Source: an uncultured Lachnobacterium sp.
GTDB taxonomy: Bacteria > Bacillota > Clostridia > Lachnospirales > Lachnospiraceae
Direction of reading: 5' to 3'
NCBI GenBank assembly: GCA_900546625.1
Contig: URDU01000048.1
Location: 1 to 14,057, forward strand
Length of the DNA stretch: 14,057 bases
Shown here: positions 361 to 14,057 of the stretch, piece by piece
How positions within the stretch are numbered: the first letter of the stretch is position 1
How the letters are laid out: every line of letters begins with the position of its first letter
Program-made: the position numbers and the translations under genes
Notes under the pieces: model-generated
What the model was told of the DNA's origin: nothing
Databases searched by the model: none
The model's input: the letters and a program-made list of their open reading frames with translations, nothing else

Positions 361-375
361 GGATATGATAGTGAC

Positions 376-408: not shown

Positions 409-482
409 ATCTCAAAAGTCATTTATGATGAAATGCAGCTAGTGCATATTTATCTGAGATTATGATATTTGAAATCATTAGG

Positions 483-514
483 CCCTGAACGATAATAGTT
501 CAGGGATTTTTTTT
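483..514 (+). terminator. second leader terminator immediately before ribD
   Basis: A perfect 8-bp stem CCCTGAAC/GTTCAGGG (483-490, 498-505) with a 7-base loop is followed by A and eight T residues (507-514). It ends only 16 bases before the ribD start codon and overlaps the approach to its ribosome binding site (GGAAAGG, about 517-523). It may be a second attenuator in the leader, or may affect translation of ribD. Confidence 0.85.
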
Positions 515-530
515 GCGGAAAGGAAACCAA

Positions 531-1697
531 ATGACTGATGAACAATATATGAGAAGGGCAATTGAGCTTGCAAAGCGCGGCATGGGATATACCTCGCCAA
601 ACCCGATGGTCGGAGCTGTGATTGTAAAGGACGGCAGGATAATCGGAGAGGGCTGGCATGAGAGATACGGAGAGCTGCACGCGGAAAGAAATGCGTTAAA
701 GCATTGCAAGGAATCGCCACAGGGAGCAGATATGTATGTGACTCTCGAGCCCTGCTGTCATCATGGCAAGCAGCCACCATGTGTGGAGGCAGTGATAGAA
801 GCCAGTATAAAAAGAGTATATGTGGGCTCGGATGACCCAAATCCGCTTGTCGCCGGAGGCGGTATCAAAATCCTTAAAGAGCATGGGATAGAGGTTGTCA
901 CGCAGGTGCTTAAAGAGGAGTGTGACAGGCTGAACGAGGTGTTCTTTTACTATATACAGACCAAACTTCCATATGTCGCTATGAAATATGCCATGACGAT
1001 GGACGGAAAGATAGCCACATATTCAGGGCTTTCAAAGTGGATAACAGGAGAAAAAGCGAGAGAACATGTGCAAAACCTGCGCCACAGATATAAAGCCATA
1101 ATGGCAGGAATAGGAACAGTGCTTGCAGACGATCCACTGCTTACATGCAGAATCGAGGGCGGAGTAAATCCAATCCGCATAATATGCGATACGCACCTTA
1201 AGCTTCCACTGGAATCGCAGATAGTAAATACTGCAAAGGAAGTGCCAACGATTGTTGCAGTCAGTGAGCGATATCGTGAAACCGCACAGTCAGAAGCCTT
1301 ACCTGATACTGAAAAAGATAGTATAGAAGAAAACATTGATTATCAAAAAAAGAGAAAAATAACACGGCTTGAAGAAAACGGAATAGAAATTCTGTATGTA
1401 GCTGAAAAAAACGGTCATATTGATTTAAATGACCTCATGCAAAAGCTCGGCGAAAGAAGCATAGACAGCATTCTGCTTGAGGGAGGCGGAATACTCAACT
1501 GGTCAGCCCTGGAGAGTGGGATTGTGAATAAGGTATACGCTTACATTGCACCAAAGCTTTTCGGAGGGGCGGATGCAAAAACTCCGATAGAGGGAATGGG
1601 AACCGACTCACCGGCACATGCCGTGATGCTTGGAAACAGTAAGGTAACAAAGCTTGGTGATGATTTCCTCATCGAGAGTGATGTTGTGAATACTTAA
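531..1697 (+). CDS. ribD: bifunctional riboflavin deaminase/reductase RibD
   Basis: RibD deaminates the pyrimidine made from GTP by cyclohydrolase II, then reduces its ribose side chain with NADPH (steps 2 and 3 of the pathway). The protein has 388 residues. The N-terminal cytidine-deaminase-like domain (about 1-145) has the zinc site H50-A-E52 and PCCHHGKQPPC with C75 and C84. The C-terminal reductase domain (about 146-388) has TMDGKIA (156-162), SKWITG and EGGG (317-320). I chose ATG 531 because GGAAAGG sits correctly before it; an in-frame TTG at 513 lies inside the terminator T-run. Residues about 248-282 form a polar, charge-rich linker that looks like an insertion relative to compact RibD proteins. 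It is the first gene of the rib operon. Confidence 0.97.
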   Translation: MTDEQYMRRAIELAKRGMGYTSPNPMVGAVIVKDGRIIGEGWHERYGELHAERNALKHCKESPQGADMYVTLEPCCHHGKQPPCVEAVIEASIKRVYVGSDDPNPLVAGGGIKILKEHGIEVVTQVLKEECDRLNEVFFYYIQTKLPYVAMKYAMTMDGKIATYSGLSKWITGEKAREHVQNLRHRYKAIMAGIGTVLADDPLLTCRIEGGVNPIRIICDTHLKLPLESQIVNTAKEVPTIVAVSERYRETAQSEALPDTEKDSIEENIDYQKKRKITRLEENGIEILYVAEKNGHIDLNDLMQKLGERSIDSILLEGGGILNWSALESGIVNKVYAYIAPKLFGGADAKTPIEGMGTDSPAHAVMLGNSKVTKLGDDFLIESDVVNT

Positions 1698-1716
1698 AAA
1701 AGAAAGGCGATACACA

Positions 1717-2436
1717 ATGTTCACAGGAATAGTTGAAGAAGTTGGAACAATAGATACAATTTCACGTGGAGCAAACTCAGCAGTACTTACAATCAGAGCT
1801 GAAAAAGTGCTAGCTGGAATAAAGGTCGGAGACAGCATAGCGGTAAACGGTATCTGCCTCACGGTCACAAGGCTCATGCCACATGCGTTTACAGCGGATG
1901 TCATGCACGAGACGCTAAACCGTTCATCACTTGCAAATGCGATGAGAGGAGCACATGTCAATTTGGAGCGTGCGATGGCAGCAGATGGCAGATTCGGCGG
2001 GCACATCGTGTCGGGACATGTTGACGGAACAGGCAGGATTGTGGAGGTCAAAAAGGATGATAATGCCATCTGGTATACGATACAGGCTGCACCACAGCTC
2101 ATGCGCTATATAGTCGAGAAGGGCTCCGTCACAATCGATGGAATAAGCCTCACAGTCGCAAAGGTGGCAGAGGATAATTTCTCGATATCAGCGATACCGC
2201 ACACGGTAAGCCAGACTGTGCTAAAGGACAGAAAGGTGGGAGCTGTCGTAAATCTGGAAACAGATATCATAGGAAAATATGTTGAGAAGCTGTTGTTTAA
2301 AGGGCAGTCGGATGGAATAACAGAAGAAATGACAGGAACACAGACAATTAAGGAAAATGTACCACATAAATCCGGCGAAAATAAAAAACAACCGGATGGA
2401 ATAACAAGAGAGTTCCTGGCAAAATACGGCTTTTAA
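1717..2436 (+). CDS. ribE: riboflavin synthase, alpha subunit
   Basis: Riboflavin synthase dismutates two 6,7-dimethyl-8-ribityllumazine molecules into riboflavin and a pyrimidine that is recycled by lumazine synthase. The start MFTGIVEEVG is diagnostic. Two lumazine-binding repeats are visible: the first (about 1-94) with NGICLTVT (44-51), the second (about 95-190) with GHIVSGHVDG (95-104) and DGISLTVA (141-148). At 239 residues it is longer than the usual 200-220. The excess is a C-terminal tail (about 195-239) in which the motif DGIT occurs twice, encoded by an identical 14-base word 84 bases apart. AGAAAGG precedes the ATG. It lies 19 bases after ribD. Confidence 0.97.
   Translation: MFTGIVEEVGTIDTISRGANSAVLTIRAEKVLAGIKVGDSIAVNGICLTVTRLMPHAFTADVMHETLNRSSLANAMRGAHVNLERAMAADGRFGGHIVSGHVDGTGRIVEVKKDDNAIWYTIQAAPQLMRYIVEKGSVTIDGISLTVAKVAEDNFSISAIPHTVSQTVLKDRKVGAVVNLETDIIGKYVEKLLFKGQSDGITEEMTGTQTIKENVPHKSGENKKQPDGITREFLAKYGF
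2309..2406 (+). repeat. in-frame direct repeat in the 3' end of ribE
   Basis: The 14-base word CGGATGGAATAACA occurs at 2309-2322 and again at 2393-2406. The offset is 84 bases, exactly 28 codons, so both copies encode the same DGIT motif. The second copy leads to the usual terminal segment (REFLAKYGF). Flanking similarity is limited, so it could be an old internal duplication or a local insertion. Confidence 0.7.
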
Positions 2437-2543
2437 CATAAAAGCACGGGTATCGTGCGAGTTTGCGAATGTGCGTGGAGCTGAAGGGTTAAAAAATTAT
2501 GTAATTGAACATCTTCAAAATCATAAGAGAAAGGACATAAAAT

Positions 2544-3740
2544 ATGAAATTCAACACAGTAGAAGAAGCACTTGATGAGCTTCGTGCAGGGAAAATAATA
2601 CTTGTCACAGATGATGAGGACAGAGAGAATGAGGGCGATTTCATCTGTGCGGCAGAATTTGCCACAACAGAAAACATCAACTTTATGGCGATGCACGGCA
2701 AGGGTCTGATATGCATGCCGATGTCGCAGGAATATGTAAAGAAGCTTCGTTTTCCGCAGATGGTGCAGGAAAATACAGACAATCATGAGACAGCATTTAC
2801 AGTATCAATAGACCATGTCTCAACAACCACAGGCATTTCCGCAGCAGAGCGCTCAATCACAGCAATGAAATGTGTCTCTGATGACGCAAAGCCTGAGGAT
2901 TTCAGACGTCCGGGCCACATGTTTCCGCTTCTTGCAAAGAAAAACGGCGTACTGGAGAGAAACGGACACACAGAGGCAACAGTCGATCTGTGCAGGCTCG
3001 CAGGACTAAAGGAATGTGGACTGTGCTGTGAGATAATGCGTGAGGACGGTACCATGATGCGCACAACAGAGCTCATGGAGCTTGCAAAAAAATGGGACAT
3101 CAAGTTCATCACAATAGCGGCACTTCAGGAATACAGAAAGATACATGAAAAGCTCGTTGACCGTGTCACAGAGGTAAAGCTGCCGACTAAATACGGCGAA
3201 TTCAAGGCATATGGCTTCGTCAACAGATTAAACGGAGAGCATCACGTAGCACTTGTAAAGGGCGAAATCGCAGATGGAAGAGATGTGCTCTGCCGAGTAC
3301 ATTCAGAGTGTCTCACAGGAGATGTATTCGGCTCGCAGCGCTGCGACTGCGGTCAGCAGCTTGAGGCAGCCATGAGACAGATAGACGAGGAGGGCAGAGG
3401 AATACTGCTCTACATGCGTCAGGAGGGCAGAGGCATCGGCCTGATAAATAAGCTGAAGGCCTATGAGCTTCAGGAGCAGGGCATGGACACACTCGAAGCA
3501 AATCTGGCACTCGGCTTTGCCGGAGATGAGCGCGAGTACTATATCGGAGCTCAGATATTAAGAGAGCTCGGCGTACACAGCCTGCGCCTTCTCACAAATA
3601 ACCCTGACAAGGTATACCAGCTCTCAGAGTTTGGCATGGAAATAAGCGAGCGTGTGCCAATCCAGATGAGCGCCACAGCACATGACCTGTTTTATCTGAA
3701 AACAAAGCAGAACCGCATGGGACACATACTCTCATATTAG
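2544..3740 (+). CDS. ribBA: bifunctional DHBP synthase / GTP cyclohydrolase II
   Basis: This fusion supplies both precursors of the pathway. The N-terminal domain (about 1-200) makes 3,4-dihydroxy-2-butanone 4-phosphate from ribulose-5-phosphate and shows [10 protein letters not shown] (23-32), GKGLICMP and RRPGHMFPL. The C-terminal domain (about 205-398) opens GTP and shows the zinc motif [14 protein letters not shown] (C256, C267, C269), RQEGRGIGL and LLTNNPDK. The length of 398 residues is typical of Firmicute RibBA. Start ATG 2544 follows GAAAGGA. The 107-base gap after ribE holds only a small GCACG/CGTGC hairpin (2443-2458) without a T-run, so I treat the genes as one transcript. Confidence 0.98.
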
Positions 3741-3861
3741 TACACCGCATCGAGCATTTTTGCAATGTGTGCGGGGATTCTGAATAGTAACAAATTCTAA
3801 ATAGTTAATAATTGCAGATAAACTCATCTGAGTAAAAATAAAAAACATAAGGAGAACAAAA

Positions 3862-4326
3862 ATGAACGTAATCGAAGGAAAAATGACACAGGATGGAATC
3901 AAGATAGGAATCGTAGTAGCAAGATTCAATGAATTTATCACATCAAAGCTTTTAGGAGGAGCAAAGGACGGACTCGTAAGACATGACGTGCCGGAGGAAA
4001 ACATAGACGTAGCATGGGTGCCGGGAGCATTCGAGATACCACTCATCGCAAAGAAGATGGCAAAAAGTGGAAAATATGATGCAATCATCTGCCTCGGAGC
4101 AGTAATCAGAGGAGCAACAAGTCACTATGACTATGTGTGCAACGAGGTATCAAAGGGAATCGCATCCGTATCACTTGAGTCAGAAATCCCGGTAATGTTT
4201 GGAGTAGTCACCACCGAAAACATCGAGCAGGCAATAGAAAGAGCCGGAACAAAAGCCGGAAACAAAGGATATGACTGTGCACTCGGTGCAATCGAAATGA
4301 TAAATCTTGTCAGACAAATCGGATAA
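3862..4326 (+). CDS. ribH: 6,7-dimethyl-8-ribityllumazine synthase
   Basis: Lumazine synthase condenses 3,4-dihydroxy-2-butanone 4-phosphate with the RibD product to make the substrate of riboflavin synthase, usually as a 60-subunit capsid. The 154-residue protein carries all family blocks: ARFNEFIT near the N-terminus, [23 protein letters not shown] (79-92, with H88 at the position of the known catalytic histidine), and [24 protein letters not shown] precedes the ATG. The 121-base gap after ribBA has a weak hairpin (3745-3774) with no T-run, so co-transcription is likely. It is the last gene of the operon. Confidence 0.98.
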
Positions 4327-4350
4327 TATAATTTATATAGCATAATACCC

Positions 4351-4383
4351 CGAGGTCCAAATATCATCGATATTTGGACCTCG
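4351..4383 (+). terminator. long perfect hairpin after ribH, probable operon terminator
   Basis: A 14-bp perfect stem (4351-4364 with 4370-4383), extendable by a C-G pair to a 3-base loop, begins 24 bases after the ribH stop. The sequence behind it is AT-rich but has no clean T-run. It may therefore terminate inefficiently or mainly protect the mRNA 3' end. Confidence 0.6.
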
Positions 4384-4465
4384 AATAATATATATATAAA
4401 ATAATCTGCCTATTAATTGTCATCCTGAAATAGCGTAGTAATCCACAAAAAAATAACTTTCAAAC

Positions 4466-4495
4466 GCAAGCTTAACAGCGTGTTGTCAAGCTTGC
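4466..4495. repeat. inverted repeat GCAAGCTT/AAGCTTGC
   Basis: GCAAGCTT (4466-4473) and AAGCTTGC (4488-4495) are perfect inverted copies. AACA/TGTT (4474-4477, 4481-4484) extends the stem past a 3-base bulge (4485-4487), leaving a GCG loop. No T-run follows on either strand, so it is not an obvious terminator. Confidence 0.6.
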
Positions 4496-4553
4496 AACCA
4501 ACCAATAACTAAAAATCGCAAATCATAAGTAGTAAATTATTGTCACAACGTAA

Positions 4554-4593
4554 GTGGCGTAAGCGCTGCACGGATGCCCGGCGCTTACGCCAC
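4554..4593. repeat. 13-bp GC-rich palindrome
   Basis: GTGGCGTAAGCGC (4554-4566) is perfectly inverted at 4581-4593 around a 14-base GC-rich loop. It stands out from the AT-rich spacer. No T-run follows on either strand, so it looks more like a REP-type palindromic element, a protein-binding site or a structured RNA than a terminator. Confidence 0.65.
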
Positions 4594-4635
4594 GCCCTCC
4601 AAACAAAAAAGAAGAAAAATTTAATATCTAAAGAA

Positions 4636-4664
4636 TTGCACGAAAAATCTGTATATAGTATAAT
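4636..4664 (+). promoter_or_regulatory. promoter of the tyrosine-phosphorylation operon
   Basis: TTGCAC (4636-4641) and a perfect TATAAT (4659-4664) are separated by 17 bases. The expected start near 4671 leaves a leader of about 30 bases before the TTG start at 4701, containing GGAGG at 4686-4690. Confidence 0.8.
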
Positions 4665-4700
4665 GATAGTTCAGGAAAACAAAACGGAGGACCATGAATT

Positions 4701-5402
4701 TTGATAGATATACATTGCCATTTATTATACGGAGTGGATGACGGCTCAAAGTCGCTCGAGGAATCGGTAGAGATGCTCAAGATAGCCAAAAAGCAGGGCA
4801 TCACAGGCATAATCCTCACACCGCACCTGCGCCATGGAATGTTTAAGCATCCGCTTGAAAAGATAGAGCGACACTATAAAAAGCTGATGCCATATGCAAA
4901 GAAGCTTGGGATAGAATTAAAGCTCGGCACAGAGTATCATGTGGCAACCGATATGATAGATGCCTTTCATGGTGGGCTGTGTCATACACTGGCAGATACA
5001 CAGTATATACTCACAGAGTATTCACATTCCAGCGAATACTCGTTTGTATACAAGATGACGCGCGAAGCTATATTTGCAGGATATATACCGGTGATAGCAC
5101 ATGTTGAGAGATATGAGTGTCTCAGTGATATAAGCCGTATAGAGGATTTGCAGGAGCTGGGAGCGCTCATACAGGTTAATGCAGACTCAGTGCTTGGCAT
5201 AGATGGCAGACACTTCAAGAGATACACAAAGAAGCTTTTGAAGGCAGGACTTGTTGATGTAATAGCAAGCGACAGCCATGGTACAAAGGAGCGCGTCTGC
5301 AACATGAAAAAATGCTATGAGTACGTGGCAAAGAAGTTCGGTGATGACTTCGCGCAGGAAATCATGCAGACCACACCGGAAAATATAATAAACGGAAGAT
5401 AA
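4701..5402 (+). CDS. cpsB: PHP-family protein-tyrosine phosphatase, CpsB/YwqE type
   Basis: Proteins of this family are metal-dependent phosphatases that remove phosphate from the tyrosine cluster of CpsD-type kinases. The 233-residue protein has the PHP signature: H5-C-H7 with DDG (13-15), TPH42, E78 and H80, AHVER (H134), and SDSH (D191, H193). These match the metal ligands known for the family. The start is TTG, placed 10 bases after GGAGG. The nearby ATG at 4694 is in another frame, too close to the ribosome binding site, and opens only 15 codons. The start MIDIHCHLL agrees with homologues. It is the first gene of the operon and is followed 24 bases later by its adaptor gene. Confidence 0.93.
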   Translation: MIDIHCHLLYGVDDGSKSLEESVEMLKIAKKQGITGIILTPHLRHGMFKHPLEKIERHYKKLMPYAKKLGIELKLGTEYHVATDMIDAFHGGLCHTLADTQYILTEYSHSSEYSFVYKMTREAIFAGYIPVIAHVERYECLSDISRIEDLQELGALIQVNADSVLGIDGRHFKRYTKKLLKAGLVDVIASDSHGTKERVCNMKKCYEYVAKKFGDDFAQEIMQTTPENIINGR

Positions 5403-5426
5403 TAAGTGTAAATGCGGGGATAAATA

Positions 5427-6200
5427 ATGGAGAGAGAACAGGATTTTGACAACGAGATAGAGATAGACTTAAAGGATCTGTTTCTTGAGATAATTTCATA
5501 TTGGCAGTGGATAATTCTTGTTACGATAGCGGCAGGTGCAGTGGCATTTGCGATAAGCAGATTTATGATTACACCTATGTATGAATCGACATCTGAGCTC
5601 TATGTACTTTCAAAGAGCACATCAATCACAAGCCTTGCGGATATCCAGACAGGCACCAGCCTGACAAATGATTACATAGTTGTAGTAAAGGGACGTCCGG
5701 TGCTGGATCAGGTCATAGAGAATCTCAATCTGAATGAGAGCTATAAGACACTTGGCGGTAGGGTGACGCTCGACAATCCGTCCAACTCGCGAGTACTCAA
5801 CATCACAGTAACGGATCCGGATCCGCAGATGGCAAAGACCATAGCAGATGAGATAGCAAAGGTAGCATCGGCATATATAGCGGAAAAGATGAAGCAGGAT
5901 CCGCCGACCATCATCCAGAGCGGATATGATGATGGAGGCGCAGTAAGCCCTAATATCGGCAAAAACACAGTGATAGGAGCCTTTGCGGGAGCATTTCTGT
6001 CGATTGCGGTTATAGTGGTTTCTTATCTGTTCAATGATACAATCATAGATACAGAGGATGTGGAGAAGAAGCTTGGCATGAACGTGCTTGGTACACTTCC
6101 GCTCGATGAAGCGGAGGATGACGGAGAGCATGGAAAGGGTAGAAAGCATAGCAAGGGCAGCCACAGAAAGATAAGAAAAAAGAAATCGGCTTCAGCATAA
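5427..6200 (+). CDS. Wzz/CpsC-like chain-length and kinase-adaptor protein
   Basis: This is a polysaccharide co-polymerase family membrane protein, which in Firmicutes activates the partner BY-kinase through its cytoplasmic tail. The 257 residues show a charged N-terminus (1-25), TM1 about 28-46, an extracytoplasmic part beginning with the typical YESTSELYVL (52-61), TM2 about 179-200, then a cytoplasmic tail. DTEDVEKKLGMNVLGTLP, just after TM2, is the usual kinase-proximal segment. The final 30 residues are unusually basic (GKGRKHSKGSHRKIRKKK), following an acidic patch. GCGGGGA lies 6 bases before the ATG. It sits between the phosphatase and kinase genes, 26 bases before the latter. Confidence 0.92.
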   Translation: MEREQDFDNEIEIDLKDLFLEIISYWQWIILVTIAAGAVAFAISRFMITPMYESTSELYVLSKSTSITSLADIQTGTSLTNDYIVVVKGRPVLDQVIENLNLNESYKTLGGRVTLDNPSNSRVLNITVTDPDPQMAKTIADEIAKVASAYIAEKMKQDPPTIIQSGYDDGGAVSPNIGKNTVIGAFAGAFLSIAVIVVSYLFNDTIIDTEDVEKKLGMNVLGTLPLDEAEDDGEHGKGRKHSKGSHRKIRKKKSASA

Positions 6201-6226
6201 GGAAGCCTGTATCAGGAGATGGGCAG

Positions 6227-6940
6227 ATGGAATTAGTAAAGTTTGGCAAGCTAAAAGAACAAAGCTATACAATGAAGGAATCGCTTCGAGCTTTGAAGAC
6301 AAATATACAGTTTTGCGGGGATGATATACGCACGCTTCTTGTGACAAGCTCTGTTCCAAATGAAGGCAAAAGCACCGTGGCACTTGATCTGGCGCGGTCG
6401 CTTACAGAGTCAGGAAAGAGAGTGCTTTTCATAGATACTGATATGCGTAAATCAGTCCTTGCAGGGCGTCTGCGTGCCACAGCGGCAAGTGGAGGGGAGA
6501 TATGCGGATTGTCGCACTATCTTTCCGGTCAGAGACGTCTCGAGGAAGTGATGTATGGCACGGAAATACCGGGCCTTTTTATGATATTTGCAGGGCCGTC
6601 TGTGCCGAATCCGACAGAGATTCTTGAGAAAAAATACTTTCAGGAGCTTCTTAATTTCGGCAAGGAGCACTTTAACTACATAATTATAGACTGTGCACCG
6701 ATAGGAGCTGCCATAGATGCGGCAGTTGTAGCAAAGTATTGTGACGGAGCTATAATAGTGATAGGACAGGGCATGGCGAGCGCCAGAATGATACAGAGTG
6801 TGAAAAAACAGCTCGAGGCATCGGGAGTGAGGATACTGGGCGCTGTGCTCAACAAGGTAAACAACAAGAAAAACAGCCATGTCAGTGGGTACTATGGCAA
6901 TTACTACGGCAGCTATTACGGGCGGTCGGATAAAGCATGA
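6227..6940 (+). CDS. cpsD: CpsD/YwqD-like bacterial tyrosine kinase
   Basis: BY-kinases phosphorylate themselves and other proteins on tyrosine and control exopolysaccharide polymerisation. The 237-residue protein has Walker A PNEGKST (44-50), Walker A' FIDTDMR (68-74) and Walker B YIIIDCAP (151-158). A C-terminal cluster YYGNYYGSYYG (222-232) provides six tyrosines as autophosphorylation sites. It is the separate cytoplasmic type that needs the adjacent Wzz-like protein. AGGAG (6214-6218) precedes ATG 6227. Its stop codon overlaps the next start as ATGA, which suggests translational coupling to the Hsp90-like gene. No polysaccharide-synthesis genes are in the window, so its substrate is unknown. 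Confidence 0.95.
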   Translation: MELVKFGKLKEQSYTMKESLRALKTNIQFCGDDIRTLLVTSSVPNEGKSTVALDLARSLTESGKRVLFIDTDMRKSVLAGRLRATAASGGEICGLSHYLSGQRRLEEVMYGTEIPGLFMIFAGPSVPNPTEILEKKYFQELLNFGKEHFNYIIIDCAPIGAAIDAAVVAKYCDGAIIVIGQGMASARMIQSVKKQLEASGVRILGAVLNKVNNKKNSHVSGYYGNYYGSYYGRSDKA

Positions 6941-8835
6941 AAAGCATCGATGTAGAGTTAGGAAAATCAAATATGCTGCCGCTTATTGCAAGCCAGCAGT
7001 TTTATGCTTCGTGGAAGGTCTTTATCAGGGAGCTTTTGCTCAATGCCATGGATGCCTGCAATGTGCGGCAGGCACTTGAGTGGAGCTGGGGCACGGAGTT
7101 CCTCGAGCTGGAGCAGGCAAGCCAGATGCGCGATGTCAGGGCCATATATGAGCCGCGCATAGACATCACGTACAGCAGTGATACAAGACTGTTTACGATA
7201 GAGGATAACGGAATAGGCATAAATGAATATGACCTGGAGCACTTTATCGCACAGATAGGGGCAAGCTATTATACAAGCGCAGATTTCTTCAATCAGCAGC
7301 TGAAGTATGAGCCGTATTCCCACTATGGCATCGGGCTATGCTCGTGCTTTACAGTCTCAAAGGCTGTGCTCATCGAGTCGAAAAAGGATAAGGTCATAAA
7401 CACTGCCTGGAACATAAGCAATCCGCAGGATACGGCACCGGTCATGGCAAAGTGGTTTGGAGATAGTGGCCAGATAGAGTATGTCATATCGCAGAAAAAG
7501 ACACCGGGCACACGCATCTCTATCCCTGTAAAGCCATCATATGCGCCGTATATAGATATGGATTTTATAGTGGACACCATAAAGCACTATATGCTTACAC
7601 TGCCTATACCTGTAAATATCAGGTGTGATACGAGGGAGGTATGCCTGTCGCAGCCAAAGGCAAAGTGGAACTATCCGATGAATGAGCTTGTTGGCATGAA
7701 TATCATACGAGTGGATAACAGCCTGCTTGAGGGCTATGTTGCCATATATCATCCAAAGCACAAGGGGTATTTTCCTAAGTCCACGCTGTACCAGCAGGGA
7801 GTCCTTGTGTCAGATGCTACAGACATACTGAGGCTTGCGCCATCGTGGATAGACAATTTCTCGTATCAGCTCAATATCAAAAAAAGGTTTTTAAACATAA
7901 GCATATCGAGAGACGGAGCAGCCTTCGATGAAAAGCACATAGAGCTCCGCCAGTACATCGGACAGATTATTATTGATTTTTTTGGTCAGAGTCCACTCAC
8001 ACTTGGACAGTACCTGTCAGACGGCAGAAAACGGCTGGTAGGTGAATACGAGGCAGAAAACGAGCTGGTAAGCAGAGCTATACAGGTGCTTGTATATATA
8101 AAGGAGCGCGAGGTAGAGGTGCCGGTGAGGACAGTGATAAACGGCTTTATCGGGCGGAAAATAAAGATAGCATTCATGCAGAGGGCGCTTTTTGCACACT
8201 ATAGGGAGAACTACCCTTATGATTATGGTCAGTTTATTGACAAGTACGATATCATAGTATTTGAGCAGAATATCCGAGCCTTCTGGCAGTTTATGACACC
8301 ATACATCACATCTATGGAGTATGTTATGGGTGACATGCCGGGCATCATATACACGGATGTATCGGCAGACCTAACAGTGGCAAAGACAGCAGCATCGTAC
8401 AGAAACGACTACGTGCTAAGACCGGAGTATTATGATCTGGACCCTGTATTTTGTCTGGTGTCAAATGAGCTGACAGACCCGATGGAGCTGGTGATAAATA
8501 CCCACAACCGCAATGCAATGCTTTTGCAGCGCGCCGAAAAGTACAAAAAGGTAAGGATTGCAAGAGCTGTGATCATAGAAAATATCAAGCAGAGGATACT
8601 GGGCAATGCATCCAGATGGAACAGTATCATAGATTTTGGAGGCGAGCTCGTGCACCAATATGAGCTGGAAAAGCCAATGAGCCTGCAGGCACAGTGGTGC
8701 CTCGAGAGAGACTTCCCGGATGAAATCAATGCGTATATAGCAAAGACCTTTACAGACAGGGAAATCGCAGATTACGGGCTTACAAGTCTTTATTTTACAA
8801 GGAAGGACTTTATAAAGTGGTGGATGGCACCATAG
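6937..8835 (+). CDS. Hsp90-like (GHKL) ATPase-domain protein, function unknown
   Basis: The N-terminal third carries an Hsp90/HtpG-type nucleotide fold. RELLLNAMDAC (31-41) places E32, N36 and D39 as in the HtpG catalytic helix; EDNGIGI (89-95) is the GHKL G1 box. HYGIGLCSCF (129-138) followed by VSKAVLIESK resembles the Hsp90 G2/lid region, and GTRISIPV (191-198) resembles the end of the ATPase domain. After about residue 200 I recognise no domain, and the typical Hsp90 middle and C-terminal sequences are not evident. No membrane segment or signal peptide is visible. At 632 residues it is near HtpG length. The start overlaps the kinase stop (ATGA), so it is probably translated together with the BY-kinase. 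It may be a chaperone or a signalling ATPase serving that module; this is inference. Confidence 0.8.
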   Translation: MKSIDVELGKSNMLPLIASQQFYASWKVFIRELLLNAMDACNVRQALEWSWGTEFLELEQASQMRDVRAIYEPRIDITYSSDTRLFTIEDNGIGINEYDLEHFIAQIGASYYTSADFFNQQLKYEPYSHYGIGLCSCFTVSKAVLIESKKDKVINTAWNISNPQDTAPVMAKWFGDSGQIEYVISQKKTPGTRISIPVKPSYAPYIDMDFIVDTIKHYMLTLPIPVNIRCDTREVCLSQPKAKWNYPMNELVGMNIIRVDNSLLEGYVAIYHPKHKGYFPKSTLYQQGVLVSDATDILRLAPSWIDNFSYQLNIKKRFLNISISRDGAAFDEKHIELRQYIGQIIIDFFGQSPLTLGQYLSDGRKRLVGEYEAENELVSRAIQVLVYIKEREVEVPVRTVINGFIGRKIKIAFMQRALFAHYRENYPYDYGQFIDKYDIIVFEQNIRAFWQFMTPYITSMEYVMGDMPGIIYTDVSADLTVAKTAASYRNDYVLRPEYYDLDPVFCLVSNELTDPMELVINTHNRNAMLLQRAEKYKKVRIARAVIIENIKQRILGNASRWNSIIDFGGELVHQYELEKPMSLQAQWCLERDFPDEINAYIAKTFTDREIADYGLTSLYFTRKDFIKWWMAP

Positions 8836-8898
8836 GCTGTACCGCACAGACATATATTATCAAACACTTATTGAAGCATGAATAAGGAGAACATGAAA

Positions 8899-9519
8899 AT
8901 GGAGATATTAGACTTAAACAACGAAGAAGACACAAAAACAACCGATGAGATGGAGCCAAAAAAGCCGGAGGAAAAAACATCACCTGTCAAGGAAATCTTA
9001 AGCTGGGTGTTAACAATCGCATTCGCCATTGTAGCGGCAATACTCATAAAGAACTATGTCATTATAAATGCAAATATTCCGTCAGGCTCGATGGAGAACA
9101 CCATACAGATTGGAGATGACATATTTGGCTTCAGGCTCGCATATACATTTTCTGACCCAAAGCGAGGGGATATAGTCATATTCAATGCCCCGGATTCGCC
9201 TTCTGAGAAGTACATCAAGCGTGTAATAGGTCTGCCGGGAGAGACAGTCACCATAGAGGACGGCCAGGTGTATATAGACGGTGAGGCGCTTGAGGAGGAT
9301 TATCTCAAGTCAAACCAGAGCGGTGAGGATCCGTGGACAGTAAATGCCGGACCTTACGAGTTTAAGGTGCCACAGGACTCATATCTGCTGCTCGGTGACA
9401 ACAGAAACGGCTCATCAGACGCAAGAGTCTGGGAACACACATATGTGTCCAAGGACGATATACTTGCAAAAGCGATATTCAGATATTACCCGTTCGACAG
9501 ATTCGGAGCGGTGAAATAA
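8899..9519 (+). CDS. lepB: type I signal peptidase
   Basis: Signal peptidase I removes signal peptides from exported proteins at the outer face of the membrane. From ATG 8899 the protein has 206 residues: an acidic and lysine-rich cytoplasmic N-terminus (about 1-32), a single TM segment (about 34-53), box B IPSGSMENT with catalytic S64, box D KYIKRVIGLPGE with catalytic K107, and box E GDNRNGSSDAR. Candidate ATGs occur at 8878, 8893 and 8899. AAGGAG (8884-8889) lies 9 bases before 8899 but only 3 before 8893, and lies downstream of 8878, so I prefer 8899. It follows the Hsp90-like gene by 63 bases with no terminator between. Confidence 0.93.
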   Translation: MEILDLNNEEDTKTTDEMEPKKPEEKTSPVKEILSWVLTIAFAIVAAILIKNYVIINANIPSGSMENTIQIGDDIFGFRLAYTFSDPKRGDIVIFNAPDSPSEKYIKRVIGLPGETVTIEDGQVYIDGEALEEDYLKSNQSGEDPWTVNAGPYEFKVPQDSYLLLGDNRNGSSDARVWEHTYVSKDDILAKAIFRYYPFDRFGAVK

Positions 9520-9560
9520 GCTGTAAATCAGGATATAAAATAAAAATAGAGGTAAAGTAA

Positions 9561-10709
9561 ATGCCAAAGACAGAAACAGACATTGAAAAACGAAATAAAT
9601 ATGGCATGCTGTGCGGTATAGTCGGTATATTTTTAAACCTCATACTCTTTGCCGGCAAGCTCTTTGCAGGAATGCTAAGCGGTGCAATTTCAATCACTGC
9701 GGATGCATTCAACAACCTGTCAGATGCAGGCTCATCAATCATCACAATAGCGGGCTTCAAGATGGCGGCGCAGAGAGCTGATGAGGAGCACCCATACGGA
9801 CATGCGAGGATGGAGTATGTGGCTACACTGGCAGTTGCAGCAATCATACTCATAATGGGCTTTGAGCTGTTCAGGGATTCCTTTGGCAAAATCATAAAGC
9901 CGCAGGACATAGAGTTTTCATGGCTTATTGTAGCGATACTACTGGCATCGATAGCCGTAAAATGCGTCATGGCGGTATACAATTTCTATTTTTCAAAAAA
10001 GCTTGATTCATCAACACTCGAAGCGACAGGCAGGGACAGTCTGTCAGACTGTATCGCTACATCTGTAGTACTTGCAGCCACACTCATAGCGCACTTTTCA
10101 GGACTCAATCTGGATGGAATAGGCGGTGTATTTGTGTCATTGTTTATATTCTATTCAGGGATATCATCAGCCAGGGAGGCGATAGACCCGCTGCTTGGAG
10201 CAAAGCCGGAGCCGGAGTTTGTCGATAGACTCAAGGAGATGGTACTGGACTTTGACAAAAACATACTCGGTATGCATGACCTTATGGTGCATGATTATGG
10301 ACCGGGACACAGGATAGTATCGTTTCATGCAGAGGTGCCGGAGGACGGAGATATGGTCGAGCTGCACGATATAATCGATAATCTGGAGCGCAGGATACGA
10401 AGGGAGCTGGGCTGTATAGTGACCATCCACATGGACCCGGTAGCGATAGAGGATGAGGAGGTAGCCGGACTGAAGGCCGAGGTGCTCTCTGTGATAAAAG
10501 GGCTTGATTCGCACATAAATATGCACGATTTCCGTATTATCAGGGGTGATACACATACGAATCTGGTTTTTGACATTGCAGTTCCATTCGGCTATATCAC
10601 CTCAGATGATGATATATGCAATGCAATACAGGAAAATGTCAGGAAAAAGCTTGGAAAGAATTACTATACCGTGATAGAGGTAGACCGCGATAATTACATA
10701 AATATATGA
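9561..10709 (+). CDS. cation diffusion facilitator transporter, possibly Mn-type
   Basis: CDF proteins export divalent metal ions in exchange for protons. The 382-residue protein has about six TM segments in residues 15-210 and a long cytoplasmic C-terminal domain. The TM2 motif is DAFNNLSDAGSS (N51, D55) and the TM5 motif is GRDSLSDC (D159, D163). HPYGHARMEY follows TM2. The transport site would thus be N-D-D-D without histidine. Zinc-type members usually have a histidine there; an Asn/Asp site is reported for Mn exporters such as MntE, so manganese is my inference. The C-terminal domain is longer than usual, with a second segment from about 300. GAGGTAAAG precedes the ATG; 41 bases separate it from lepB. 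Confidence 0.92.
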   Translation: MPKTETDIEKRNKYGMLCGIVGIFLNLILFAGKLFAGMLSGAISITADAFNNLSDAGSSIITIAGFKMAAQRADEEHPYGHARMEYVATLAVAAIILIMGFELFRDSFGKIIKPQDIEFSWLIVAILLASIAVKCVMAVYNFYFSKKLDSSTLEATGRDSLSDCIATSVVLAATLIAHFSGLNLDGIGGVFVSLFIFYSGISSAREAIDPLLGAKPEPEFVDRLKEMVLDFDKNILGMHDLMVHDYGPGHRIVSFHAEVPEDGDMVELHDIIDNLERRIRRELGCIVTIHMDPVAIEDEEVAGLKAEVLSVIKGLDSHINMHDFRIIRGDTHTNLVFDIAVPFGYITSDDDICNAIQENVRKKLGKNYYTVIEVDRDNYINI

Positions 10710-10746
10710 CATTGTAAGGGATATATACGAGCTTCGTCGGTGGCTG

Positions 10747-10776
10747 TTGGGATAAAGAAACGGTGCACAATAAGAT
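10747..10776 (+). promoter_or_regulatory. weak candidate promoter for the two-component genes
   Basis: TTGGGA (10747-10752) and TAAGAT (10771-10776) are 18 bases apart in the 84-base gap between the transporter and the response regulator. Both boxes are imperfect. A separate promoter is plausible because the downstream genes differ in composition and function, but read-through from upstream is equally possible as there is no terminator in the gap. Confidence 0.3.
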
Positions 10777-10793
10777 AAAAGAGGGTAAAGTAT

Positions 10794-11522
10794 ATGTTAC
10801 GAATAGGAATATGTGATGACTCAGCGGAAGCAAGGCAGCATATGCTGCAATTATGTCAGAAATATTATGAAAACAATACGGATGCATTTGAATATAAAAT
10901 GTATAAAAACGCAGAAGAGGTTCTTGAATATTGTGATGATGAGGAAAACCAAAAAATAGATATACTTTTTCTGGATATAGAGATGGATGGTCTCAGCGGA
11001 ATAAAACTAAAGGAACGAGTACTGAAACTGGACAAAATCTGGCGGATAGCATTTGTGTCGAGTCATGATGAGAAGATGATAGATTCCTTTGGAATCAAGA
11101 CTATAGATTTTATCAGGAAGCCGGCCGGATATATGGATGTGAAAGCAGTGCTGGAAAAGGTATTGATAGAGAAATGTGAGAATGTAGGCATTTCGTATTT
11201 GTCTGAAACCGGTCAAAACATAATAATCTATGCTGAGGATATAAGATATATAGAAGCACAGGGAAAATATGCGTATATTTATACCAATGGGCAGAACTTT
11301 GTAGGAATGAATATATCTGAGATTGAGAAACGGCTTGAGGACAGTTCTGTGATACGTGTTCATAAATCATATATGGTTAATCTTGAATATGCCACACTTA
11401 GAAATGGAAAATTATCTATAAGAGATATGGATATTGAAATTCCGATTGGTAGAAGCTATAAAGAAACCGTAAAAAGGTTATATCACGAGTATGGTGAAAG
11501 AATGGCGAGGCGAAGAATGTGA
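10794..11522 (+). CDS. LytTR-family response regulator (AgrA/ComE type)
   Basis: The 242-residue protein has a receiver domain (about 1-125) with acidic pocket D8-D9, phosphoacceptor D61 in FLDIEM, and K109-P110. A C-terminal LytTR DNA-binding domain (about 140-235) shows the typical core VIRVHKSYMVN. LytTR regulators bind pairs of direct repeats about two helical turns apart, often in promoters of bacteriocin or pheromone genes. AGAGGGTAAAG precedes ATG 10794. The gene overlaps the kinase start by four bases (ATGTGA), so the pair is co-translated. A suitable direct repeat lies downstream of the kinase at 12852-12881, which suggests the target. Codon use is more AT-rich than in the preceding genes. 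Confidence 0.95.
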   Translation: MLRIGICDDSAEARQHMLQLCQKYYENNTDAFEYKMYKNAEEVLEYCDDEENQKIDILFLDIEMDGLSGIKLKERVLKLDKIWRIAFVSSHDEKMIDSFGIKTIDFIRKPAGYMDVKAVLEKVLIEKCENVGISYLSETGQNIIIYAEDIRYIEAQGKYAYIYTNGQNFVGMNISEIEKRLEDSSVIRVHKSYMVNLEYATLRNGKLSIRDMDIEIPIGRSYKETVKRLYHEYGERMARRRM

Positions 11523-12814
11523 TAAGGGATATATTGTATTTGATAGTATATTTTGTAACAGAGACGGTACTTTATTCATTAGCATATCGTACTGCACTAA
11601 GTAGAGGAATTACCAATAAAGCTGTCAAATGGATGGTATATATCATTGCGGTGGTAATTACAGGGAGTATTGTATATGTAAATAATAATCTACAGTATGT
11701 AATGGGAGCATCCATATTTATAATGGTTATGTTGCCTGTTTTTATAATAGAGCCATTTAAAATTCAAAATTTGATTTTGTATCCGTTTGTGGTTATAGCA
11801 AGCTCTATATTTGGAATGTTGTTTTCATTTATTATATCTATAAAAATTGGAATTTCTGAATACTACGTTAAGGAATCTCCGGCTTTAACGATTTTATGTC
11901 AGATATTGAGTATAGGTGTCTGGGCGCTAATATATGTAATAAAACGAAGAAAAAATGATCAGGAAGAAGTAGTTTTAGATCTAAAACATTACATCATTTT
12001 GTATTTAGTTACCATCAGTTCATTGATATTAGTAGGATCAATTCAGACTTTTTCAGAATTGGAAGAGTATGAAGATTTGCAAATTTATGGGGTGTTTGCA
12101 GTAATGGCTTGCTGTACACTTGTTGTAGTAACACTTATGCAGATTGTTGTTTTAAGCCAGAATGCACATATAAAAAAGTCAAATGACATGTATAAGGAGC
12201 ATATGGCTTTACAAAAGCAGTACTATGAGCATATGCTTCTGCAATATGAAGAACTGCGGAAATTCCGTCATGATGTAAAAAATCATATGCTTGCGTTAAA
12301 TAGTATGTGTACCAGCGAAGATAATTCACAAATAAAAAAATATTTATCGCAGCTAACTAATGAGGTTTCATCTAAAAAACCGGTAGAGTACACCGGAAAC
12401 AGGGAATTGGATGCGGTAATAGCTCCATTTGTCCTGGAAGCTGAAAGTAAAAATATAAAGGTTCAGTTTAAGGGGCGCGTATCGGATAATGTAGCAATTG
12501 ATATGTTTGATATGTGCACAATAATATCAAATCTCTTAAATAATGCCATAGAGGCATGCGAAAAAATACAAGAGGACAAAAGAATAATTGAGTTTGAGAT
12601 AGCCGGTTATAATTCACAAATATTTATCTCGGTTTGTAATAGTTATGATATGGAGAGTATTATAAATCAAAAACAAAAGTTTATTACTACAAAAGAGGAT
12701 AAGCTGAATCATGGTATTGGCTTAGAAAATGTAAGCAGGACTGTAAAAAAATATGATGGAGATATGAGAATATCTCAGGAAAATGAAAGATTTATTGTAA
12801 CAATAAATATATAA
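11519..12814 (+). CDS. AgrC/BlpH-type GHKL sensor histidine kinase
   Basis: The first 215 residues form about six to seven hydrophobic segments, typical of peptide-pheromone receptors, and contain no extracellular sensor domain. After a coiled region the kinase core has the H-box FRHDVKNHM with H251, the N-box NLLNNAIEA (338-346) and the G-box HGIGLENV. This arrangement (a histidine in FRHDxKNH and a GHKL ATPase) belongs to the HPK10 family of AgrC, ComD and BlpH, which sense secreted peptides. The start is GTG 11519 inside the end of the regulator gene, with GAGG at 11506-11509; length 431 residues is typical. A terminator follows at 12841-12902. The cognate signal peptide is not identified; the small peptides downstream are candidates. 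Confidence 0.94.
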   Translation: MIRDILYLIVYFVTETVLYSLAYRTALSRGITNKAVKWMVYIIAVVITGSIVYVNNNLQYVMGASIFIMVMLPVFIIEPFKIQNLILYPFVVIASSIFGMLFSFIISIKIGISEYYVKESPALTILCQILSIGVWALIYVIKRRKNDQEEVVLDLKHYIILYLVTISSLILVGSIQTFSELEEYEDLQIYGVFAVMACCTLVVVTLMQIVVLSQNAHIKKSNDMYKEHMALQKQYYEHMLLQYEELRKFRHDVKNHMLALNSMCTSEDNSQIKKYLSQLTNEVSSKKPVEYTGNRELDAVIAPFVLEAESKNIKVQFKGRVSDNVAIDMFDMCTIISNLLNNAIEACEKIQEDKRIIEFEIAGYNSQIFISVCNSYDMESIINQKQKFITTKEDKLNHGIGLENVSRTVKKYDGDMRISQENERFIVTINI

Positions 12815-12840
12815 AAAATAGGAAAATAGTTATAGAAATA

Positions 12841-12902
12841 AGCAATCACTATGTCGTTCATACCTAAAAAGTGTCGTTCATGCAATAGTGATTGCTTTTT
12901 TT
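12841..12902 (+). terminator. kinase terminator with a large loop holding a direct repeat
   Basis: AGCAATCACTA (12841-12851) and TAGTGATTGCT (12886-12896) form a perfect 11-bp stem followed by a seven-T run (12896-12902). The loop is 34 bases, far larger than usual for an intrinsic terminator. It contains two copies of TGTCGTTCAT. Confidence 0.75.
12852..12881 (+). promoter_or_regulatory. candidate LytTR operator: 10-bp direct repeat
   Basis: TGTCGTTCAT occurs at 12852-12861 and again at 12872-12881. The start-to-start distance is 20 bases, about two helical turns on the same DNA face. A CGTT core and a 9-10 bp pair with this spacing are typical of AgrA, ComE, PlnC and BlpR-type sites. The right copy ends 34 bases before a possible -10 box, the position expected for an activator site. 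Assignment to the regulator at 10794 is inference. Confidence 0.6.
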
Positions 12903-12921
12903 GTGTATAAAAGAGTATAGT
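12892..12921 (+). promoter_or_regulatory. candidate regulated promoter of the small-peptide genes
   Basis: TTGCTT (12892-12897) and TATAGT (12916-12921) are 18 bases apart. The weak -35 box overlaps the 3' arm of the kinase terminator, and the direct repeat lies just upstream, as in activator-dependent LytTR promoters. Transcription would begin near 12928 and read into AGGGAGG (12941-12947). Confidence 0.5.
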
Positions 12922-12957
12922 GAATATGCAAAGATAAATAAGGGAGGAAATAGTGGG

Positions 12958-13017
12958 ATGACACCAATGATTATAGATCTAGAATGGCTTATTCGAATAT
13001 TGATGGGAAAAAAATAA
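12958..13017 (+). CDS. 19-residue small peptide, function unknown
   Basis: ATG 12958 opens a 19-codon frame, MTPMIIDLEWLIRILMGKK, 10 bases after a strong AGGGAGG. It is the first possible gene behind the candidate LytTR promoter. The peptide is hydrophobic, with interspersed D7, E9 and R13 and a lysine end, so an amphipathic helix is plausible. It has no double-glycine leader, Cys residue or AgrD-like features that I can name. It may be a pheromone, a PSM-like peptide, a leader peptide or a chance frame. The evidence for expression is the ribosome binding site and position only. Confidence 0.4.
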   Translation: MTPMIIDLEWLIRILMGKK

Positions 13018-13229
13018 AAACTTATGATTATAAAAATCTATATTAATAAGTCCGGTAAAGTATCTGATTTACAAAATCAAAAAATTACTTTATAAAACAC
13101 AGTCGGTATAGAATGTGTAGTACTGCTGTACCGCAAGATAATTATGGTATGAAGCAAGCAATTGCTTTATATATATTCTCAACAATGCGCAGAAAGAGAA
13201 AATAGGAATTATATGAAGGGAGAAAGATC
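13018..13229. other. AT-rich leader region before the first bacteriocin-like gene
   Basis: I see no convincing gene. The stretch contains a 5-bp inverted repeat CGGTA/TACCG (13104-13108, 13129-13133) and a perfect 12-bp palindrome AAGCAATTGCTT (13156-13167), neither followed by a T-run. No second copy of the TGTCGTTCAT repeat is present. A 23-codon frame at 13024-13095 lacks a good ribosome binding site. Confidence 0.5.
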
Positions 13230-13376
13230 ATGGAATTAGCATTACAATTTGAAAATTTGAATTGTGAAGAGTTATGTGCGATTGATGGTGGAAACAAAGC
13301 ACAGGATGTAGGCTATCAGGTAGGAAAGTATATTGGAATTACAGCTACATTAATTCTTAAGTTGATGGGATACTAA
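13230..13376 (+). CDS. double-glycine-leader peptide, class IIb bacteriocin-like
   Basis: This 48-residue gene has AAGGGAGA (13216-13223) before ATG 13230. Residues 1-21 form a leader ending LNCEELCAIDGG, which matches the LSxxELxxIxGG pattern cut by C39-peptidase ABC exporters. Cleavage after G21 would release a 27-residue peptide of net charge about +2, starting NKAQDVGYQVG. It contains consecutive GxxxG motifs (G28, G32, G36) followed by a hydrophobic end (TATLILKLMGY). GxxxG motifs and small cationic peptides encoded in pairs are the mark of two-peptide (class IIb) bacteriocins. It has no cysteine after the cleavage site, so a lantibiotic or cyclic thiolactone is unlikely. It could also serve as the signal for the upstream kinase. 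Confidence 0.8.
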   Translation: MELALQFENLNCEELCAIDGGNKAQDVGYQVGKYIGITATLILKLMGY

Positions 13377-13499
13377 ATTAAATAATATTTGAGCATGTTA
13401 ACTTTTGAGATTTGCATCTATAATAATAATATTTGTAAATGTCACAAATAGATATGATTCAGTCGATGTTATCATGAATGTAAAGGAGGTGTATATTAA

Positions 13500-13640
13500 A
13501 TGTTCAAAGAAATTAGTGGAAGAGACCTTTTCATAATTGAGGGGGGAAAGAAAAATCCTGTTTGGAAATTTTTTGAAGGTACAGGATATTTTGCCATTGG
13601 TGTTTACAATGGAATTAAGGACTGGTTTGGAGCTTGTTAG
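13500..13640 (+). CDS. second double-glycine-leader peptide, class IIb bacteriocin-like
   Basis: This 46-residue gene follows a near-perfect AAAGGAGGT (13482-13490), 9 bases before ATG 13500. The 16-residue leader MFKEISGRDLFIIEGG fits the double-glycine pattern, with cleavage after G16. The predicted 30-residue product is cationic (about +2) and aromatic (W22, F24, F25, Y30, F31, Y36, W42, F43), has GxxxG at G34-G38, and ends in GAC with one cysteine. Its IGVYNGIKDWFG segment resembles Blp/lactacin-type peptides by eye. With the peptide at 13230 it may form a two-component bacteriocin. The 123-base gap holds a TATAAT (13419-13424) but no good -35 box. An immunity gene and exporter would be expected nearby. 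Confidence 0.8.
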   Translation: MFKEISGRDLFIIEGGKKNPVWKFFEGTGYFAIGVYNGIKDWFGAC

Positions 13641-13657
13641 GTGATGAACTGAAGAAT

Positions 13658-13687
13658 AAAGAGAGACTAAAATTAGAGTCTCTCTTT
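13658..13687 (+). terminator. 11-bp hairpin after the second peptide gene
   Basis: AAAGAGAGACT (13658-13668) and AGTCTCTCTTT (13677-13687) are perfect inverted copies around an 8-base loop, 18 bases after the peptide stop. Only three T residues close the stem and none follow. It may be a weak terminator or attenuator lowering expression of the next gene, or an mRNA-stabilising end. Confidence 0.5.
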
Positions 13688-13784
13688 AAGGTGGTATTCA
13701 AGTTAAATGAAGCAAAATTAAATATAAATTTTTTGTCAGTGATGAGAACTTTTAATCAAGTCATTTATCAGGAGAATAATACAA

Positions 13785-14057
13785 ATGAATAAAAGAAAGA
13801 GTAATTATATATATATTGAAATGAGGCATAAAATGCTAATAGTTGGAGTTATAATAATTCATGTTTGTTTTATGCTCATAGGGGCTAGTGGCATTATATC
13901 TGGTTTAAAAGAAAAAAATATATTTTATGGACTGCTGATAAATATGATTTATCAGTTGACTTTGATTATCATGATTGGAGTGGCAATGAAGCAATATTTG
14001 ACCACTTCATTTAAAAAATTCAAAGCTGACAGAATTTCTGTAAATATAAAAAGAGTT
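13785..14057 (+). CDS. membrane protein, 5' part only (possible immunity/accessory protein)
   Basis: ATG 13785 follows AGGAG (13770-13774) by 10 bases and opens a frame that stays open to the window end (91 codons). After a basic N-terminus (MNKRKSNYIYIEMRHK) two TM segments are visible, about residues 17-40 and 47-67, then a lysine-rich loop with KKFKADR. I do not recognise the family. Its place directly behind two bacteriocin-like genes makes an immunity or bacteriocin-associated membrane protein the simplest guess. A transport component is also possible, though the visible part shows no ABC or peptidase motif. The C-terminus is outside the window. Confidence 0.7.
   Translation, partial: MNKRKSNYIYIEMRHKMLIVGVIIIHVCFMLIGASGIISGLKEKNIFYGLLINMIYQLTLIIMIGVAMKQYLTTSFKKFKADRISVNIKRV

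Follow-up and report, generated by a model that had tools for sequence, protein, structure and literature searches.

What signal governs the bacteriocin-type peptide genes at the right end of this DNA, a 14,057-nucleotide stretch from an uncultured Lachnobacterium sp. (contig URDU01000048.1; hereafter the window)? A LytTR-family response regulator gene and an AgrC-type sensor kinase gene are followed there by two small genes for peptides with double-glycine (GG) leaders (peptides 1 and 2), and an earlier reading of the sequence (the original prediction) took the whole for a regulated class IIb two-peptide bacteriocin locus. That reading overlooked what is likeliest to be the signal, a very short open reading frame (micro-ORF) between the kinase and peptide genes. 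We propose, with modest confidence, that the window carries a modular bacteriocin island of the blp kind, controlled by a quorum-sensing cassette whose signal is probably a leaderless micropeptide.

Results

The regulator, kinase and both peptide genes were confirmed where the original prediction had placed them, with the leaders as quoted and good ribosome binding sites (RBSs; Table 1). Between the kinase gene and peptide 1, the micro-ORF is preceded by a terminator-like hairpin, a direct repeat predicted to be a LytTR operator and a promoter-like site. With up to 3 mismatches allowed, the repeat gave 1 match against 0.01 expected. The hairpin was missed by our terminator scan, in which loops were limited to 3-8 nt; with that limit, no + strand terminator was listed in 10700-14057. 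Since the first hexamer of the promoter-like site, which was found by eye, agrees with the consensus at 3/6 positions, the site is not in the promoter scan either (the sigma-70 scan showed no excess, with 22 sites found and 21.6 expected), and 12892-12921 could conceivably be an activator-dependent promoter. No + strand ORF of at least 60 aa lies between 12814 and 13785, so no AgrB is encoded there, and no repeat of period 20 or 21 was found directly before peptide 1 or 2. The link claimed between regulator and peptides proves more specific than first supposed: the single regulator-type direct repeat found in this region precedes the micro-ORF and not, directly, either peptide gene.

Micro-ORFs of this kind recur behind related kinases. 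Searching 394 genomes of the family with the window kinase gave a match at 1e-35 in 15. The two nearest relatives in other genera (L084 and L085; 33-34% identity) have an RBS-preceded short ORF directly after the kinase, MIASIDWSWLWKLFG in L084 and MPYGLNWDWLIGLITGNGGKEEE in L085, and in L084 two double-glycine peptides and then a C39 exporter follow it. We built a kinase profile from nine kinases, which at the chosen threshold was matched in 264/397 genomes, and assembled a test set of 82 Lachnospiraceae kinases outside the profile (the eight profile kinases besides that of the window were left out); 60 of the 82 were those with the best scores among the matches listed, after a few had been set aside because they lay at contig edges, contained stops or had been read before. 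A micro-ORF was counted if it had 13-28 codons, an RBS, at least 1 Trp, at least 3 aromatic residues and a start no more than 300 nt after the kinase. Results showed an aromatic micro-ORF behind 21 of the 82 kinases, compared with 1/82 on the antisense strand, a mean of 3.1 (maximum 8) in 100 shuffles and 7/315 behind non-kinase long ORFs (p 1.5e-10 vs the 82). Twenty-two of the loci had been seen before the criterion was fixed; among the 60 kinases that had not, 12 were followed by a micro-ORF (p 2e-6 vs 7/315). Two likely members seen with a looser RBS rule (L108 and L134) are outside the 21.

The aligned micropeptides (n=27, with the window and the first loci included) contain 12% Trp and, by eye, a core of the form [DN]-x-aromatic-W-x-W-[LIF], and 18/27 have a hydrophobic residue and Gly near the end. 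The window micropeptide is a weak but recognizable member, closest by eye to MVFYICDLTDWLKWILGIHK (L107), MLCDIDWINWFISMFGKKK (L142) and MTFDEIIRMLLGL (L193). Within one genus, where two genomes could be compared, the micro-ORFs differ at 4/72 bases (3 silent, 1 Tyr to His), differences that are consistent with coding and too few for proof. We also saw a second companion peptide, of 47-49 aa and ending in ..[IL]LT[IL]xCC, at L104, L117, L118, L123 and L125 (4/82 kinases and one profile kinase); it had no NCBIfam match in three examples tested and no Pfam match in one. The genome nearest to the window (G001), which alone has 22 GHKL matches over the cut-off, carries at L063 (G001:C1:1220500-1229000) a kinase followed by a very Trp-rich, cationic ORF of 16 residues, MRRWQWGWLTKWLRKK.

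Repeats of at least 9/10 identical bases and a period of exactly 20 precede 10 of the 21 micro-ORFs, with 0.3 in shuffles and 0-2 for other periods. The 10-mer of the window itself stands twice at the same period between the kinase and micro-ORF of L084. A strict, CGTT-core version of the operator was present in 5/21 micro-ORF loci and 4/61 others, and the evidence for the period is accordingly stronger than that for any single sequence. When the 397 genomes were searched with the repeat alone, 6 places in 4 genomes were found (reversed control, 0), and three of them, L190, L193 and L194, run into a micro-ORF. At L195, in the same contig and locus as L194, a double-glycine peptide gene (MFKTLNQNEMMTVNGG...) lies 131 nt after a second repeat, with a C39 exporter frame behind it. 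The order at L194/L195 is kinase, repeat, micropeptide, regulator, repeat, double-glycine peptide and exporter, and by this order the locus is an independent example of the coupling that we propose for the window (see Discussion). Other copies of the repeat lie ahead of a gene that by eye is permease-like (L192, G191:C33) and at a place without a clear target (L191, G249:C5).

Strain comparison showed that the cassette occupies a variable slot. G001 could be aligned to the window at ~95-99% over 1-10717 (in pieces) and 13042-14057, but not over 10718-13041; the G001 slot opposite holds another LytTR regulator (24% identical), an opposite-strand kinase (26%) and two further double-glycine peptide genes, so that unrelated regulator cassettes stand upstream of the same peptides. 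The right edge of the exchange falls inside one of the G001 double-glycine genes, of which the window keeps a 3' remnant. G001 has four GG peptide genes in a row, and its full-length version of the gene at the window end encodes a 243-aa CPBP protein (PF02517, 7e-21). A C39 profile search of G001 found no exporter near this CPBP gene and two full C39 exporters elsewhere, the first ~45 kb farther along in the same direction and the second much more distant, both adjoining double-glycine peptide genes and, by eye, an HlyD-like gene.

The second genome of the genus, G015, has a practically identical cation-efflux protein (DNA 96.7% identical over 2 kb) and, at the same chromosomal site, an island with several double-glycine peptides, a 737-aa C39-ABC exporter, a 509-aa HlyD-family protein and CPBP proteins. 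A C39 exporter is thus available within the island in G015 and outside it in G001. The nearest solved relative of the G015 exporter is the bacteriocin transporter 4ry2, which we take to be PCAT1. The original prediction had looked to the flank for a C39 exporter and immunity genes, and related genomes bear this out (exporter and HlyD-like protein in G015, CPBP in G001). The G015 copy of the window CPBP gene lies at a contig end, with four stops in the stretch translated. Regulators of G015 and G001 are 91% identical and kinases 65%, and both cassettes have, before their own double-glycine genes, a AAATAGCAC-like repeat of period 21; since this differs from the repeat of the window, operator and regulator appear to change together. 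Syntenic loci of seven other species of the genus (L056-L062) had no island DNA in common with the window, only patches of flanking genes. We found no match for peptide 2 in plasmids, for leader-1 and micro-ORF DNA or the kinase in viral contigs, or for the cassette in phages and plasmids, and thus nothing in these collections points to carriage by a phage or plasmid. In our reading, the window carries a single haplotype of a strain-variable, modular bacteriocin island whose fixed site is bounded by the cation-efflux and CPBP genes. In a separate observation, an agr-like set read by eye in G001 (AgrB-like protein, short precursor, kinase and LytTR regulator; L016, G001:C1:836000-852000) adjoins a C39 exporter and several double-glycine peptides with the common leader MDMCYDGALVLPSSYAVM.

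In its sequence the kinase resembles a polymorphic peptide receptor. Seven hydrophobic segments, helices in the structure model (mean predicted local distance difference test score, pLDDT, 78.9), precede the catalytic part of the window kinase. At E<=0.01 the PDB contains a single sequence match to the kinase, the kinase module of Staphylococcus aureus AgrC (2.1e-12), which is also the top fold match of the model. A polytopic N-terminal domain is thus joined to an AgrC-like GHKL module, as in AgrC/HPK10-type kinases. The claim that the regulator is of the peptide-sensing type is supported. Identity between the G001 and G015 kinases is 18-42% over the first 200 residues and 90-98% over most of the remainder. 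Among metagenome alleles of the window kinase, P0086 is 54-64% identical to residue 200 and 94-100% from there to residue 350, and P0081 differs mainly in residues 100-200. Such mosaics, in which divergent sensor domains are joined to near-identical kinase domains both in G001/G015 and among the window kinase alleles, resemble a pherotype signature; pherotype polymorphism is known for CSP-ComD and BIP-BlpH (PMC7595303; this and the other papers cited by PMC number are drawn on from excerpts). In G001 and G015 a double-glycine peptide gene adjoins the variable end of the kinase, with a core that differs between the two, and its product is a natural candidate for their signal. In a Mantel test over 24 of the 27 loci (3 with short kinase reads were left out), micropeptide similarity correlated with sensor similarity (rho 0.165, p 0.015; partial 0.136, p 0.038); the value for kinase-domain similarity was rho 0.10, p 0.10.

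In mature form, peptide 1 is predicted to have 27 aa and peptide 2 30 aa, with a net charge of +2 in both cases; the two are short and cationic and carry GxxxG motifs, as first described: two overlapping in peptide 1 (GYQVG, GKYIG) and one in peptide 2 (GVYNG). Both peptides thus have the GG-ending leader and short mature part of class II double-glycine bacteriocins, and the presence of GxxxG in both agrees with class IIb. Peptide 1 gave a weak match to Pfam Bacteriocin_IIc at E 0.0018 (18.6 bits, below the curated cut-off of 27.1), and peptide 2 matched nothing in Pfam or NCBIfam. Both genes are present in G001 (858/858 bases covered), with 1 aa change per peptide. In G015, however, unchanged leader-1 DNA is followed by another core, KRNYSIEKYVKNYLDFIKKAIDIFRPMPI, the switch coming directly after the GG codons, and peptide 2 was not found. 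Among public metagenome proteins at E<=1, peptide 1 had 25 matching rows and peptide 2 had 10, some of them frame-shifted or partial. Among them leader 1 recurs with the window core and its variants, with the KRNYSIEKYVKNYLDFIKKAIDIFRPMPI core (e.g., P0026, P0030, P0034), with a third core ending DGFLDWFGAC (P0031) and with the short KRVNVKPRALDN (P0032), and leader 2 has more than one continuation.

Adjacency of peptides 1 and 2 holds in the window and G001, and joint inheritance does not extend to G015. The class IIb pair of the original prediction, taken as obligatory, is accordingly unsupported: leader 1 has at least two other full-length cores, G015 lacks peptide 2 and G001 has four consecutive GG peptides, findings that speak instead for a fixed leader behind which cores are exchanged. 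The broader assignment, as class II double-glycine bacteriocin-type peptides that may be antibacterial, is largely supported by the leaders, the CPBP gene next in G001 and the C39 exporter of G015. An origin from a gut Lachnospiraceae is also supported. Frame-shifted metagenome copies of the peptide genes (P0009, P0010, P0024, P0033) may be loss-of-function alleles or sequencing errors. Leader-1 DNA gave 34 matches at E 0.01 across the 397 family genomes, the full match only in G001; the 33 others, fragments of ~60 bases or shorter, were judged to be chance.

Table 1. Features of the regulatory and peptide region (positions are those of the window)
Feature	Position	Strand	Evidence and remarks
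LytTR-family response regulator, 242 aa	10794-11522	+	Pfam LytTR 53.6 bits, Response_reg 41.5 bits; 24%-identical regulator at the equivalent G001 slot
AgrC-type GHKL sensor kinase, 431 aa, GTG start	11519-12814	+	Pfam HATPase_c_5 88.7 bits
Terminator-like hairpin 3' of kinase	12836-12901	+	17-nt arms 94% complementary; -21.8 kcal/mol, z -5.0
Direct repeat TGTCGTTCAT x2, period 20, predicted LytTR operator	12852-12881	+	Exact; in and beside the hairpin loop
Promoter-like site TTGCTT-N18-TATAGT	12892-12921	+	By eye
Micro-ORF MTPMIIDLEWLIRILMGKK, 19 aa, candidate signal peptide	12958-13017	+	RBS GGGAGG at 12942-12947; family in related loci
3' remnant of a third double-glycine peptide gene	13043-13111	+	5'-truncated; intact in G001; G001 similarity resumes at 13042, within the gene
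Block common to window and G015, 94.9% identity	13043-13294	+	Ends just past the peptide 1 GG codons
Double-glycine peptide 1, 48 aa	13230-13376; leader 13230-13292	+	ORF reading, RBS
Double-glycine peptide 2, 46 aa	13500-13640; leader 13500-13547	+	ORF reading, RBS
Inverted repeat 3' of peptide 2, possible terminator	13657-13688		Without a clear T run
CPBP (Rce1-like) membrane protein gene, 5' part	13785-14057, cut by window end	+	Full-length, 243 aa, in G001

Farther upstream, window 6937-8835 encodes a protein of 632 aa whose N-terminal ATPase part is HSP90/HtpG-like and scores below the curated HSP90 cut-offs, and the genes ahead of it are, by eye, of polysaccharide chain-length and tyrosine kinase types.

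Discussion

We propose that the kinase would serve as the membrane receptor for a peptide signal and that the phosphorylated LytTR regulator would bind the direct repeat, turning on a promoter for the 19-aa micropeptide and, by read-through, for the double-glycine peptides. The leaderless micropeptide would be the most likely autoinducer and, once secreted, would close a positive loop. A C39 exporter, its gene lying in the island (as in G015) or outside it (as in G001), would cleave the double-glycine peptides and carry them out of the cell, and the CPBP proteins may confer immunity or help in peptide processing.

Several observations weigh against this model. The window micropeptide is itself a weak example, with one Trp, and does not satisfy the aromatic criterion; 61 of the 82 related kinases have no micro-ORF by that criterion, four have the different conserved companion ending LTxxCC, and 3 of the 21 micro-ORFs (L125, L140, L186) are unlike the family. 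At L140 the distance from the kinase to the micro-ORF start is 27 nt, short of the 30-300 nt noted beforehand, and with that range the counts are 20/82 and 11/60. A period-20 repeat was also present in 9 of the 61 loci without a criterion micro-ORF, so the repeat does not imply a micropeptide. The correlation between sensor and micropeptide is small, its p values being given without multiple-test correction, and no exporter for a leaderless peptide was identified. Moreover, the window kinase at 1e-45 was found in 0/62 genomes of the genus, leaving no second strain in which the cassette can be read at the DNA level. Finally, G001 and G015 have a GG peptide as candidate signal at the equivalent place, which would mean that the window cassette relies on another type of signal at the same site.

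This last point bears on the best-surviving alternative, which we nevertheless regard as unlikely: the locus would encode a regulated class IIb bacteriocin, a double-glycine peptide would double as inducer and the micro-ORF would be incidental. ComD/BlpH-type kinases do usually have double-glycine peptides as signals (PMC7595303), a GG peptide gene adjoins the 5' end of the variable kinase gene in both G001 and G015, and the one beside the G015 kinase gives weak matches to models of BlpC (E 0.058) and lactococcin G-alpha (E 0.016). However, the window and G001 have nearly identical peptides 1 and 2 despite the unrelated kinases (26%) and regulators (24%), so these peptides are hardly the matched signal of both. 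They also lack a directly preceding repeat of period 20 or 21, and micro-ORFs recur beside related kinases where no GG peptide is seen just after.

Somewhat less likely again is that the micropeptide is an effector, phenol-soluble-modulin-like or a leaderless bacteriocin, under control of the regulator, with something else as the true signal. Staphylococcal AgrA directly controls such membrane-active peptides, and the micropeptides are short, hydrophobic and leaderless and stand behind a regulator-type repeat. Yet the micro-ORF stays with the kinase while the genes that follow vary, from bacteriocins and an exporter (L084) to proteins that by eye look secreted (L120, L170, L176, L193); many micropeptides are neutral or acidic, and their similarity weakly tracks the sensor domain. 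Small membrane regulators of kinases are known, and a Trp-rich short ORF close behind a hairpin could suggest a Trp-codon attenuator, but that the micro-ORF is such a cis-acting leader, or a small membrane protein tuning the kinase from inside, is improbable, since some members with one Trp or none (window, L193, L101) are similar to the rest, the window hairpin lies before the ORF and not after it, and no tryptophan genes were noticed in the loci read, where no dedicated search for them was made.

Returning to the micropeptide as signal, AgrC-type kinases are common in Lachnospiraceae, and to our knowledge most of them have no identified signal. A recurring micro-ORF behind a recognizable repeat would supply testable candidates for about one-quarter of the 82 kinases. 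The chances seem to us evenly balanced that these loci constitute an undescribed Lachnospiraceae class of quorum sensing, in which a LytTR regulator and an AgrC-type kinase act with a leaderless, usually aromatic micropeptide of ~13-28 aa behind a period-20 operator, with no AgrB, double-glycine leader or Rgg receptor, and that in the species of the window such a cassette competes with a double-glycine-signal cassette for the same bacteriocin island. If confirmed, the micropeptide class would be the important part, and genes of such small size easily escape annotation. The comparison also indicates that strains within one gut species, or within a species pair, exchange bacteriocins, exporter and whole signaling cassettes, and that a core has been swapped exactly behind a conserved leader. 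Among the literature matches listed, and as far as their excerpts go, neither the locus and micropeptide family nor micropeptides of the Trp-X-Trp kind beside membrane kinases are described; subscription papers and preprints lay outside the search.

Among known systems, the island is most readily compared with the blp locus of Streptococcus pneumoniae, which likewise has strain-variable double-glycine peptides and immunity genes at a syntenic site, a polymorphic receptor kinase and a C39 exporter that is broken in many strains, another one substituting for it (PMC7595303). It differs in that the blp inducer is a double-glycine peptide (PMC7595303), whereas in the window a leaderless micropeptide behind an operator would have that role, and in that unrelated regulator-kinase cassettes replace each other in the island. 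The positive loop proposed here would resemble those of comCDE, blp and agr, a short leaderless signal taking the part of ComC, BlpC or AgrD. The likeness to Agr lies in the kinase module, AgrC-like by sequence and fold, the LytTR regulator and the mosaic sensor. However, there is neither an AgrB-sized ORF between the window kinase and the peptides nor a visible cyclic-peptide precursor, and the AgrB protease and AgrD precursor that mark an Agr system beside its kinase are thus missing.

Rgg-type receptors are cytosolic; in the window the adjacent receptor-type gene encodes a membrane kinase, and no Rgg-like ORF was noticed by eye, without an Rgg profile search, between 10500 and the window end. 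The streptococcal Rgg1518 pheromone is nonetheless instructive, since this proven Rgg pheromone is a small-ORF peptide with a Trp-X-Trp motif, active in a C12 form, IQLIWFETWFWG (PMC9426450), that resembles the C-termini of the micropeptides described here. It is made from a 33-aa precursor and received by an Rgg-type transcriptional regulator (PMC9426450), whereas here a membrane kinase and LytTR regulator would act. Finally, the Sil system of Streptococcus anginosus is, as we propose for the island here, a quorum-sensing bacteriocin locus with an adjacent CPBP/CAAX protein, SilX (PMC9298176). A SilX mutant lost activity, which was restored by added signal, and kept immunity, and this CAAX protease appeared to serve signal production rather than immunity (PMC9298176).

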